From the NCBI GenBank assembly GCA_016124515.1, contig WGNN01000017.1, forward strand, positions 1-41,659: a stretch of 41,659 nucleotides of DNA, written 5' to 3'. Each line of letters opens with the position of its first letter. Within the stretch, counting starts at the first letter, position 1. Origin of the DNA: a bacterium. Its GTDB lineage: Bacteria; Bacteroidota; Bacteroidia; CAILMK01; JACPUW01. A program made the translations under genes and the position numbers. Below are positions 4,795 to 9,611 of this stretch, one piece after another. The notes beneath the pieces were generated by a model, which saw only the letters and a list, made by a program, of their open reading frames with translations, had not been told where the DNA came from and searched no databases.

Positions 4795-4871
4795 TTGAAA
4801 GTAATTTCCATCAATAGGTCACCTCCCTTCAACTCATCAGAACAATTTGTCGCTAGGTTGGTTTGTACCTT

Positions 4872-6401
4872 GTGCAAGTAAACATTGTTTGGTTAAAAAG
4901 AGACATCAGGTGGCGCGACCAAGAAGCCTTACACGCTGCTATTGAAACGGGAAAGCCCTTGATAATCATCTACTTTTTTGAGCCCGAACTCATTGCCAAT
5001 CACGATGCTGCCCCACGACATTGGCGTTTTGTTTACCAAAGTATTGCTGATTTGAACCGGACCATTTTCAACCAAACAGGTTTTGAAAAAGCAGTTCAAA
5101 TGGCTTATTGCGACGTGCTGACAGGCTTTGAGATCATCAGTCAACGATATGCCATTTCGCAAGTGTACTCGTATCAGGAGAGCGGAAACGCACTGAGCTA
5201 CCGCCGCGATAAAATAATGAAAAAATGGTTTTCTGATAAGAACATTGAATGGATTGAAATGCAAACCAACGGCGTGCAGCGCGGAAGAAAAAACCGCCAA
5301 GATTGGTCGCTGCAATTTGATGAAAGAATGGCTGAGCCGGAGGTTTTCCCCGATTTGAAAAAAGCCCGATTTATAGCGCTTCCCAATCAATTATTAGAAA
5401 CATTACAAGGCAATTCACTTGAGAAAGAAATTGTATCTTCTCATGAAAACTTTCAGCCTGGTGGAGAAAAATGGGCTTGGAGATATTTAAACTCTTTTTT
5501 GAACAACAGGGTAAAAAACTACAGCAAAGGCATATCCAAGCCTGAAGAAAGTAGAAGCAGTTGCAGCCGATTGTCCCCTTATTTGGCCTGGGGCAATATT
5601 TCCATGCGTTCCTTATTTCAGGAAATGAAGCGTAATTACGCTACCATTCCTAATAAAAGAGCACTTAGCAATTGGCGTTCGCGCTTGTATTGGCACTGTC
5701 ATTTCATACAAAAATTTGAGATGGAATCGCGCTACGAATTTGAAAACATTAACAGGGCATTTGACCTATTGCCCCATAAAAAAAATGATAATCATATTCA
5801 GGCTTGGCAAAGCGGGCAAACAGGTTTTCCGCTTGTAGATGCCTGCATGCGCTGCGTGGTTGCCACGGGTTATCTCAACTTTAGAATGCGCGCAATGGTG
5901 GTTAGTTTCCTCACACACAACTTGTTGCAACCTTGGCAAAGCGGAGCTTCTTTTTTGGCTAAGCAATTTCTCGACTACGAACCGGGCATACATTTTCCTC
6001 AATTTCAAATGCAAGCCGGCACTACCGGCACCAATACCCTCAGAATCTATAATGTGGTGAAACAAGCTGAAGAACATGACCCGGAGGCCGTATTTATCAA
6101 AAAATGGGTTCCTGAGCTGGAAAAACTACCCGCACATTTTGCCATAAAGCCATGGGAAATGACCCCGCTTGAGCAGGTTATGTATGGTTTCAGTTATGGA
6201 AAAGACTATCCATTGCGCATTGTAGATCATGAAGAAACCGCCCGAACTGCTAAAGTAAATTGGGCAAAGATTATGAAAACGGAAATTGCAAAAAGCGAAG
6301 CCAAGCGCATACTGCATACCCACGTGCACCTGAGCGACAAAAGAGCGCATCGCAGCAAAAGCGATATTGAATTAAAAACCAAACTACGCAACGATGCATA
6401 A
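4872..6401 (+). CDS. Cryptochrome/photolyase-family FAD protein, atypical flavin-proximal segment
   Basis: The N-terminal segment [18 protein letters not shown] is the antenna-binding alpha/beta domain of photolyases. The C-terminal half has the FAD-binding helical domain: [43 protein letters not shown], then [26 protein letters not shown]. The segment that in CPD photolyases and Cry-DASH reads NN/NYGNW (Asn beside flavin N5, then the first Trp of the electron chain) is here [10 protein letters not shown] (residues 374-383), with no Asn or Trp. So repair chemistry may differ, or the protein may be a photoreceptor. Start: GTG at 4872 gives MQVNIVW; a TTG at 4863 is also in frame. The gene overlaps the DUF2256 ORF by 8 nt and leads a same-strand series with Cry-DASH and an Fe-S photolyase. 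Family is certain; exact substrate is not. Confidence 0.9.
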
Positions 6402-6537: not shown

Positions 6538-6603
6538 TCTCCAGAAAACTCTGCCAAACCAAATTTCTCTAAACCAGCCGCATCAAAGATGGTTTTACCT
6601 CTT

Positions 6604-7986
6604 ATGAGCACAGCTATTGTTTGGTTTAGAAACGACCTCAGATTGCGTCACAATGCGGTATTGTACAAAGCAATCAACCGTCATGAACAAGTAATACCTG
6701 TTTATATTTTTGACAATCATTATTTTGAAACCAATGAATTTGGTTTTAAGAAAACCGGGCCCTTTAGAGCTAAATTCCTGATTGAAGCAGTTGCGGATTT
6801 AAGGCGCAACCTTGAATCATTTGGCGGCCAACTGCTTGTTGAAAAAGGCGATTCTGCTACGGTACTTAAAACACTTTCGCAGCAATATCATGTTGAGGCC
6901 ATTTATGCCCAAAAAGAAGTATGCGCTGAGGAATTAGCCATAGAACAGGCGGTAACTAAATCGGTGAGTTGTCCACTTGATTTTACATGGACTTCTACTT
7001 TGTTGCAACCCGAAAACCTTCCTCTTTCCATCGCTGAACTACCGGATATTTTTACTGATTTTAGAAAAAAATGTGAGAAATATGTACCAATAGAAACTGA
7101 ACTAAAACCGATAAATGCAATAAAATGCCCCGAAAATATTCCGCACCACGAAATACCTGATTTGAACGCCTTAGGTCTTGAAGAACCCGAAGTCGATACC
7201 GAGCGGATATTAGACTTTAAAGGTGGGGAAACCGAAGCATGGAACAGGCTGAACCAATATTTTTGGCAAAGCGAAGAACTCAGCAAATACAAACACAAAC
7301 GCAATGGTTTGTTGGGAGCCGATTATTCCTCCAAATTTTCCCCTTGGCTGGCGCTAGGCTGCATTTCACCCGTTTCAATTTATCATGAAGTCAAGCGTTT
7401 TGAAAAGCGCATCATCAAAAATGAATCGACCTATTGGCTGGTATTTGAGCTGCTATGGCACGATTATTTCCGCTTTGTTTGTGCAAAATATGGAAATATG
7501 ATTTTTTGGCCGGGCGGTATTAGAAATGAAAAAATAAAATGGAAATGGAACGCAGAACTCTTTGAAAAATGGCGACTTGGCCAAACAGGTGTCCCTTTTG
7601 TTGATGCCAACATGAAAGAATTGCTGCAAACTGGTTTTATGAGCAATCGTGGACGACAAAATGTGGCGAGTTTTTTGGTAAAAGACCTCGGCATTGATTG
7701 GCGGGCAGGCGCTTCTTGGTTCGAAAGCCAATTGATTGATTATGATGTATGTTCAAACTACGGAAACTGGAATTATATAGCCGGTATAGGCAACGACCCA
7801 CGCGATGAACGTTATTTTAATGTAGTGTGGCAGGCAAAAAAATACGATGCAAATGCCGCCTTTATTAAAACATGGCTTCCGGCACTTGAGCATCTGTGTG
7901 CCGAACATGCCATTGAGCCGTGGAAAACAAACGATAAACTGATGCACTACCCAAAACCCATTGTGCAAGGCCGATTCATGAAATAA
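6604..7986 (+). CDS. Cryptochrome DASH (single-strand CPD photolyase type)
   Basis: A 460-residue flavoprotein expected to bind FAD and a folate antenna and to repair cyclobutane dimers in single-stranded or looped DNA. The N-terminus MSTAIVWFRNDLRLRHN is the photolyase alpha/beta domain. Cry-DASH hallmarks follow: YKHKRNGLLGADYSSKFSPW, then SNRGRQNVASFL, LGIDWRAGASWFES, and DYDVCSNYGNWNYIAGIGND followed by PRDERYFN. The Asn and Trp next to the flavin (NYGNW) are present, unlike in the neighbouring 4872 gene. The ATG at 6604 is preferred to an in-frame ATG at 6589 because the conserved strand follows at once. It lies 66 nt after the DUF2256 gene and 47 nt before the Fe-S photolyase, so co-transcription is likely. 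It may also act in light sensing. Confidence 0.95.
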   Translation: MSTAIVWFRNDLRLRHNAVLYKAINRHEQVIPVYIFDNHYFETNEFGFKKTGPFRAKFLIEAVADLRRNLESFGGQLLVEKGDSATVLKTLSQQYHVEAIYAQKEVCAEELAIEQAVTKSVSCPLDFTWTSTLLQPENLPLSIAELPDIFTDFRKKCEKYVPIETELKPINAIKCPENIPHHEIPDLNALGLEEPEVDTERILDFKGGETEAWNRLNQYFWQSEELSKYKHKRNGLLGADYSSKFSPWLALGCISPVSIYHEVKRFEKRIIKNESTYWLVFELLWHDYFRFVCAKYGNMIFWPGGIRNEKIKWKWNAELFEKWRLGQTGVPFVDANMKELLQTGFMSNRGRQNVASFLVKDLGIDWRAGASWFESQLIDYDVCSNYGNWNYIAGIGNDPRDERYFNVVWQAKKYDANAAFIKTWLPALEHLCAEHAIEPWKTNDKLMHYPKPIVQGRFMK

Positions 7987-8033: not shown

Positions 8034-9611
8034 ATGCCGGAAAAACAGCACACCACCCAAGGCTGGAAAAACGACCCTGAAAGCAATACCAGTACACTAA
8101 AAATTATACTTGGCGATCAATTGAACTATGAGCACAGTTGGTTTAAAGCGGTTGATGATAACGTGGTTTACACATTGATGGAAATTCGCGCAGAGCAAGT
8201 GTATGTGATGCACCATATACAGAAAATAGCAGGGTTCTTCGCTGCCATGCGTGCTTTTGCTCAGCATTTATCAAGTACAGGACATAGGGTGCACTACATT
8301 AAATATGATAATCCTGAAAACGCACATTCTATTATAGACAACATCAGAATTCTACGAAAAAAATACCAATTCAACAGGATTGAATATTTGGAGCCTGATG
8401 AATACCGTCTTGACCAACTGTTTAAAACCCTTGGTAATGAGCTGGATATAGATTGCGAAATGCTGCCATCTGAGCATTTCCTGACCCAAAGAAAGGAAGT
8501 ACAAGAGTTTTTTAAAAACAAAAAAACCTATTTGATGGAAAGCTTTTACCGCCACATGCGCAGGAAACACCATATACTTATGCAGGGTACCGAACCCATG
8601 GGCGGGCAATGGAATTTTGACCACGACAACCGCAAAAAATACAAAGGAGAAGTTTCAATTCCCCCGGCATATAGTGCCAATAATAATGTTTCTGCTATTT
8701 ATAACATGATTTGCAAAGAGCAAATACCGCATTTTGGGGCCATTGATGCTGAAAATTTCCACTGGCCGATTAATCGAAAACAAGCTTTGGAGCAATTGCA
8801 TTATTTTCTGCAAAACCATTTGGTATATTTTGGAACTTATGAAGATGCCATGACCACTGAGAGCGCTACGGTTTTTCACTCACAACTCTCATTTGCCATG
8901 AATTTAAAAATGATTTCACCCATTGAAATTGTGCACAACACCCTCTCCTATTGGTCATCGCATCCAGAAATAAAAATACAACAGGTAGAAGGTTTTATAC
9001 GTCAGATTATAGGTTGGCGCGAGTTTATGCGTGGTATTTACTGGGCAAAAATGCCTCATTATGAAAACCTGAATTACTTTGAAAACGAAGCCAAATTGCC
9101 CTCGTGGTATTGGACCGGAAATACAAAAATGAATTGCCTGAAACACGCCATAAAGGGCAGTTTGAAAAACGGTTGGGCACATCACATCCAAAGGCTTATG
9201 GTTACAGGCAACTTTGCTGCTTTGATTGGTGCGGACCCTAATGAAGTTGACAACTGGTACCTGGGCATCTATGTTGATGCCATTCAATGGGTTGAAATAA
9301 CCAACACCCGCGGCATGAGTCAGTTTGCCGATGGTGGTCTTTTGGCTACAAAACCTTATGTATCCTCGGCAAGTTACATGCACAAAATGAGCGATTATTG
9401 TACCGCTTGCAGCTACAAACACCAATTGAAAACCGAAGAATATGCCTGTCCTTTCAACAGCTTATATTGGGATTATTTCCATAGAAATCGCGAAAAACTT
9501 GAAAGAAACCCGCGCATAGGCATGATGTACCGCGTGTGGGATAAGATGAAAAATCAGGAAGAAATTTTGAATAAAGCCAATCAGCTTAAGACAAAAATTG
9601 AAAGCTTATAA
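8034..9611 (+). CDS. Iron-sulfur bacterial cryptochrome/(6-4) photolyase (PhrB/FeS-BCP class)
   Basis: This 525-residue protein belongs to the deoxyribodipyrimidine-photolyase-related family, whose studied members (Agrobacterium PhrB, Rhodobacter CryB) carry FAD, a ribolumazine antenna and a [4Fe-4S] cluster and repair (6-4) photoproducts. It has the family N-terminus LKIILGDQLN, the segment YRHMRRKHHILMQGTEPMGG and the FAD-domain motifs QIIGWREFMRGIYW and MVTGNFAALIGADPNEVDNW. Cysteines C368, C456, C459 and C472 have the same spacing (88, 3, 13) as the cluster ligands of PhrB as I recall them (350, 438, 441, 454). The first 20 residues look non-conserved, so a slightly later start is possible. 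It ends 30 nt before a small exported protein and is third in the photolyase series. Confidence 0.95.
   Translation: MPEKQHTTQGWKNDPESNTSTLKIILGDQLNYEHSWFKAVDDNVVYTLMEIRAEQVYVMHHIQKIAGFFAAMRAFAQHLSSTGHRVHYIKYDNPENAHSIIDNIRILRKKYQFNRIEYLEPDEYRLDQLFKTLGNELDIDCEMLPSEHFLTQRKEVQEFFKNKKTYLMESFYRHMRRKHHILMQGTEPMGGQWNFDHDNRKKYKGEVSIPPAYSANNNVSAIYNMICKEQIPHFGAIDAENFHWPINRKQALEQLHYFLQNHLVYFGTYEDAMTTESATVFHSQLSFAMNLKMISPIEIVHNTLSYWSSHPEIKIQQVEGFIRQIIGWREFMRGIYWAKMPHYENLNYFENEAKLPSWYWTGNTKMNCLKHAIKGSLKNGWAHHIQRLMVTGNFAALIGADPNEVDNWYLGIYVDAIQWVEITNTRGMSQFADGGLLATKPYVSSASYMHKMSDYCTACSYKHQLKTEEYACPFNSLYWDYFHRNREKLERNPRIGMMYRVWDKMKNQEEILNKANQLKTKIESL

Follow-up and report, generated by a model that had tools for sequence, protein, structure and literature searches.

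A bacterial subfamily of photolyase-related proteins with altered flavin-N5, tryptophan-triad and lesion-pocket residues

The residue next to flavin N5 differs among members of the photolyase/cryptochrome superfamily. It is Asn378 in the class I CPD photolyase PhrB of E. coli, Asp in plant and Cys in insect cryptochromes (PMC10997514), and in prokaryotic (6-4) photolyases no Asn reaches N5, water is found in its place, and Tyr serves as the proximal electron donor (PMC12082625). The bifunctional PhrSph98 type, related to class II by the published account, has an aromatic chain of its own, Y389-W369-W390-F376-W381. Where among these proteins, then, does a bacterial photolyase-like protein stand if it has neither the Asn nor the proximal Trp of CPD photolyases? 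Such a protein, P0001, is encoded in the window analysed here, a 41,659-nucleotide stretch of a Bacteroidota genome (contig WGNN01000017.1), in which a DUF2256 gene, a Cry-DASH gene (P0002) and then an FeS-type photolyase gene (P0003) come after its gene, all in the same orientation (Table 1). From an alternative GTG start at 4872, P0001 would have 509 aa. P0003, with its PF04244 domain, would be an FeS-BCP photolyase.

Table 1. Positions of P0001, its neighbours, the residues discussed and related genes at other loci (those with an L prefix are numbered within their own locus)
Feature	Position	Strand	Remark
P0001, photolyase/cryptochrome-superfamily protein	4863..6401	+	512 aa from TTG 4863
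Arg274, aligned with the catalytic Glu274 of E. coli PhrB	5682..5684	+	Arg in 85/85 family members
Phe340 (=N341) to Ala344 (=M345)	5880..5894	+	Arg341/Arg343 (=R342/R344) retained
Trp358 (=W359)	5934..5936	+	sole canonical Trp-triad residue retained in P0001
10-residue signature of P0001	5991..6020	+	His377 (=N378), Phe381 (=W382), Met383 (=W384), Gln380/382/384
DUF2256 small Cys4 protein, 47 aa	6394..6537	+	PF10013 E=1.6e-21; overlaps P0001 3' end
P0002, Cry-DASH (ssDNA-photolyase type)	6589..7986	+	TIGR02765 557.9 bits, cut-off 317
P0003, FeS-type prokaryotic (6-4) photolyase homologue (DPRP)	8034..9611	+	PF04244 E=5.8e-75
Deinococcus UDG-fusion ORFs	L087:8004-10277; L162:2992-5274; L163:3034-5355; L164:2980-5259		annotated as UDG only
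Short FAD_binding_7 genes	L017:2032-3150; L032:4895-6004; L050:4859-5992; others		immediately upstream of family gene, often overlapping
Halobaculum sister proteins	L091:4935-6509; L160:4917-6503; L161:4932-6497		uncharacterised
Halorubrum sp. BOL3-1 relative	L090:4920-6518		divided into two annotated genes
Natribaculum protein	L101:931-2334		labelled photolyase
Cereibacter azotoformans plasmid relative	L166:2530-3897		degenerate (HWARVRRAARA)

P0001 has both PF00875 and PF03441 (FAD_binding_7), and Pfam gave no PF04244 match in it. Its NCBIfam scores fall short of the cut-off for each of the named classes: for the class I (E. coli-type) equivalog 166 bits against 506, 153.7 against 317.05 for Cry-DASH (TIGR02765), whose NYGNW-type motif is absent, 137.4 against 603.85 for plant cryptochrome (TIGR02766), the N5 position being His and not Asp, and 42.9 against 550 for class II (phr2). 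The last score, which puts P0001 far from class II, and the published description suggest that PhrSph98 is not of this group. VcCry2, published as a Cry-DASH/ssDNA photolyase, would by its description belong elsewhere too, haloarchaeal Phr1, considered as a possible sister group, is Cry-DASH-like (PMC8305020) and so different, and the motifs of the plant photolyase PPL, ESxSxxPVYCFDPR and FFRFxTxK (PMC9498864), are absent from P0001 by reading. The FeS-BCP (6-4) photolyases (PhrB/CryB/Cc(6-4)PL) resemble P0001 in having no N5-reaching Asn and a proximal residue other than Trp (PMC12082625), while they differ from it in PF04244 and in the Cys ligands of an Fe-S cluster, P0001 having PF00875.

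AlphaFold2, given the family alignment, yielded a model without FAD with a pLDDT of 93.6 and a pTM of 0.91, in which the last ~20 residues are of low confidence. When the model was compared with the PDB by Foldseek, full-length matches were obtained to class III (TMt 0.83), Cry-DASH (0.86) and class I (0.84) proteins at 20-24% identity. On this model the whole photolyase fold is retained, and P0001 presumably binds FAD. The best Foldseek match over the whole fold is the class III CPD photolyase PhrA of Agrobacterium (PDB 4u63), which has in common with P0001 the FAD-domain scaffold R342/R344/D372 and W277, W316 and W359 (numbered as in E. coli PhrB). PhrA is, however, 24% identical to P0001 and keeps E274, N341, M345, N378, W382, W384 and W306. 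Class I CPD photolyases (E. coli PhrB, Anacystis) share with P0001 the two domains, FAD_binding_7 and the middle Trp359, whereas P0001 has other residues in the lesion pocket and at both outer positions of the Trp triad.

How firm is the assignment of the N5 and proximal positions? With the TTG start, the signature of P0001 comprises residues 377-386; with GTG 4872, as in the numbering of the first-pass annotation, these are 374-383. It lies within a confidently modelled helix, 374-385. The stretch from D372 to A386 aligns with E. coli PhrB without gaps in both pairwise and multiple alignments, which place His377 at flavin-N5 Asn378, Phe381 at proximal W382 and Met383 at lesion-stacking W384. 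This register is confirmed by haloarchaeal relatives reading INYTQWQYQ, since these intermediates have the Asn and the Trp within the same Q-x-Q-x-Q frame as P0001. The window's Cry-DASH reads SNYGNW at the same place. Thus, the claim of the first-pass annotation that the N5 Asn and the proximal Trp are missing is borne out. No conserved Trp or Asn replacing them was found within the signature segment, and the distal Trp306 position is His. Since the Asn and the proximal Trp are absent without a substitute in the segment, the classic Trp-triad route of photoreduction is predicted to be broken, and with Trp306 lost it would be so at both ends. His377 is expected to sit at flavin N5, and we found no description of a His at this position in the open literature.

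The first-pass annotation regarded the surrounding motifs as intact. This holds for the FAD domain, as W277, W316, W359, Y222, S238, R342, R344, D372 and R397 of E. coli PhrB are all retained, but not for the lesion pocket and the triad, where R226, E274, N341 and M345 are replaced and W306 is lost. Read in the order E274, N341, M345, W277, W384 and R226, the CPD pocket is R, F, A, W, M and I in P0001, so that W277 alone is kept. Because R226, replaced by Ile, is a conserved DNA-contact Arg, binding of DNA by P0001 is not assured. A (6-4)-type active-site His pair is also missing: the N341 and M345 positions, which we take to be the places of the two active-site His in eukaryotic (6-4) photolyases and animal CRY, are Phe and Ala. 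Instead, the pocket region has acquired new charged or His residues, R274, H280 and H377, which are invariant in the family. As judged from these alignments, the rebuilt pocket speaks more strongly against CPD repair than does the loss of the Asn or the Trp by itself.

P0001 is not an isolated case. Of 443 candidate relatives found in a genome scan, 80 (41-52% identity) were retained; they belong to Bacteroidota, Ignavibacteriota, Balneolota, Bdellovibrionota and Gammaproteobacteria. Further members were found on plasmids of Vibrio, Salinivibrio, Pseudoalteromonas, Tritonibacter, Novosphingobium, Duffyella and Deinococcus, while phage records contain distant relatives only (26-30% identity). 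When 246 genomes of at least 90% completeness were sampled from the window's class, 62 carried a family gene. Seven residues, R274, F340, H377, Q380, Q382, M383 and Q384, never vary in 85 aligned members, and R341, R343 and D371 are further invariant columns. Position 381 is F, L or I in the family, V, I, M or C in a deeper group (F2), and Trp or Tyr in none. Chance or sequencing error is ruled out because H377, Q380, Q382, M383 and Q384 are identical in 85/85 members. Finite dN/dS values for close pairs are between 0.05 and 0.20; therefore the protein is maintained by purifying selection, and the reading frames are intact in most genomes. A plasmid of Cereibacter azotoformans has a degenerate relative without most of the conserved residues, which is probably decaying. 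On RefSeq plasmids, copies are found labelled deoxyribodipyrimidine photo-lyase. No description of the subfamily was found in the open-access literature, an earlier account elsewhere being possible, and it is apparently a large bacterial subfamily without a name.

In a tree of the FAD domain (53 sequences, LG+C20+F+G4), the family and F2 form a clade with a support of 100/99, and so do the family, F2 and haloarchaeal proteins together (100/99), apart from the class I, class III, plant CRY2 and Cry-DASH references; P0001 is thus placed outside the class I/III clade (100/99). It is to be noted that this tree is midpoint-rooted for drawing, that long branches meet at its root, that it omits animal CRY, eukaryotic (6-4), class II and FeS-BCP proteins, and that plant CRY2 and PhrA entered it as FAD-domain segments only. 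Cry-DASH, which matches P0001 in fold (TMt 0.86) and is its neighbour in the window, forms a separate clade and keeps E274, N341, N378 and W382. The haloarchaeal sister group, FAD-binding proteins of Halobaculum, shares the altered pocket (R274, F341, A345) and Q-x-Q-x-Q with P0001, but still has Asn378 and Trp382, with Tyr at 384. Most simply, the pocket would have been altered first and the Asn and the Trp lost afterwards. A haloarchaeal protein, from Natribaculum, shows an unusual state, with Arg at E274 and Ala at N378 but otherwise class I-like, and a haloarchaeal relative in Halorubrum is split between two annotated genes.

Do the neighbours of the family genes tell us something about function? 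We compared 31 family loci with 30 class I control loci taken from the same genome sample, with similar flanks of ~1.5 kb; in the controls, the CPD signature is intact at all positions that were read. DUF2256 was found near 20/31 family genes (4/30 at class I loci), DUF2805 near 12/31 (0/30), an FeS-BCP (6-4) photolyase near 13/31 (2/30), and a short FAD_binding_7 protein near 7/31 (0/30), whereas an enrichment of Cry-DASH over class I loci was not significant. These short proteins have ~370 aa without the N-terminal antenna domain and read SNALSWQWVAG, with Asn and Trp kept. At the level of whole genomes, DUF2256 is present in 61/62 carriers of the family against 40/184 non-carriers, and the FeS (6-4) photolyase in 58/62 against 40/184, by Fisher tests on the 246 genomes without correction for kinship. 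In genomes without the family, DUF2256 seems, by eye, to accompany the FeS (6-4) photolyase, of which it may be an unrecognised partner. In addition to the family protein, each of the 62 carriers has one or more PF03441 matches, and the match list, read by eye, shows a strong class I-like match in at least 61 of them. In the genome of the window, two FAD_binding_7 proteins were seen, P0001 and the Cry-DASH; a class I CPD photolyase was not found in this assembly, which is 82% complete, although a strong class I-like match is present in a congeneric relative. Four plasmid records of Deinococcus offer another hint. There, the family protein forms the N-terminal part of a 757-773-residue ORF together with a uracil-DNA glycosylase (UDG), recognised as PF03167 by Pfam in D. 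proteolyticus and by annotation in D. radiophilus, D. aetherius and Deinococcus sp. QL22. In the last strain, dinB and a spore photoproduct lyase family gene adjoin the fusion.

What, then, is P0001? Since the CPD pocket is gone, the fold and the FAD-domain residues are kept under selection and a CPD photolyase is already in the cell, a role as CPD photolyase is improbable; the company of photolyases and the fusion to UDG make repair preferable to signalling. We therefore favour, with a probability of about one half, a reading in which members of the subfamily have kept the fold and FAD-domain residues, have had the active site rebuilt, and are flavoproteins associated with DNA repair rather than CPD photolyases. 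Most likely, P0001 would act with its FAD on damaged nucleic acid, or on direct products of it, in cells already owning a canonical CPD photolyase. The substrate would be a lesion other than the standard CPD, the FAD might be reduced chemically or via a different aromatic path instead of the triad, and His377 beside N5 could take over the hydrogen-bonding or protonation role of the Asn. Flavin reductase (PF01613) as a substitute electron source was dropped: found at 8/31 family and 5/30 class I loci (p=0.53, not significant), such neighbours lend chemical reduction no support. The link with the (6-4) photolyase could also reflect a light-exposed lifestyle and not a shared reaction. More tentatively, one may think of an unrecognised repair class of the photolyase fold, characterised by His at N5, Arg for Glu and no triad, whose lesion is repaired neither by CPD nor by (6-4) photolyases. 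Such a class would be present in roughly one in four of the genomes sampled from the window's class, as well as in marine gammaproteobacteria, Bdellovibrionota and Deinococcus, and in view of the UDG fusion its lesion might be, for instance, a photoproduct that yields uracil when reversed.

It was also suggested in the first-pass annotation that P0001 might act as a sensor instead of a repair enzyme. Such a cryptochrome-like blue-light sensor would have lost repair and would signal via a flavin radical state set by His377. Every tested residue of the CPD pocket except W277 is indeed replaced, an intact class I photolyase occurs in the same cells, as expected for a non-repair paralogue, and plant (Asp) and insect (Cys) cryptochromes are also characterised by a change at N5 (PMC10997514). 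However, the step from a missing Asn to a sensor is not compelling because prokaryotic (6-4) photolyases repair without an N5 Asn (PMC12082625). P0001 has no C-terminal signalling extension, its final ~20 residues being of low confidence, no regulator is consistently adjacent (a LysR gene is a neighbour in 7 family loci only), and the proximal Trp on which known sensors depend is missing. The UDG fusion, the neighbouring photolyases and the FeS photolyase in 58/62 carriers point instead to repair, and the suggestion is left unsupported; we consider a sensor unlikely. A light-independent flavin enzyme, which would carry out redox or base chemistry in the dark, on DNA or on a nucleotide, with His377 as acid/base and Arg274 for anion binding, would accord with the broken Trp chain, with the new invariant R274, H280 and H377 around the pocket, and with SDR and flavin-reductase genes in some clusters. 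These genes are, however, about as common at class I loci (SDR at 5/31 against 5/30), and the strong tie to light-driven photolyases also speaks against it, so that this explanation is distinctly doubtful.

Could P0001 still be a CPD or (6-4) photolyase of the ordinary kind, in which the substitutions are tolerated? It retains W277 and the FAD-domain residues, relatives on RefSeq plasmids bear the photo-lyase label, and the Natribaculum protein, itself labelled photolyase, likewise has R274 and no N5 Asn. Against these stand the replacement of R226, E274, N341, M345 and W384 all together, the absence of either (6-4) His, and the presence of another photolyase-domain protein in 62/62 carriers, which make this very improbable. 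A decaying pseudo-enzyme, for which one could cite the absent canonical catalytic residues and the single degenerate copy in Cereibacter azotoformans, is hardly credible, as the invariant replacements, the low dN/dS and the intact frames contradict decay.

As no tested lesion-contact residue except W277 is kept, the label deoxyribodipyrimidine photo-lyase, which databases give to many of these proteins, is probably wrong in many genomes. The natural exchange of Asn for His in a protein without the triad, with the haloarchaeal proteins standing halfway, is a ready experiment on the roles of those residues, and the FeS-photolyase partner, like the fusion to UDG, supplies concrete ideas about the substrate.
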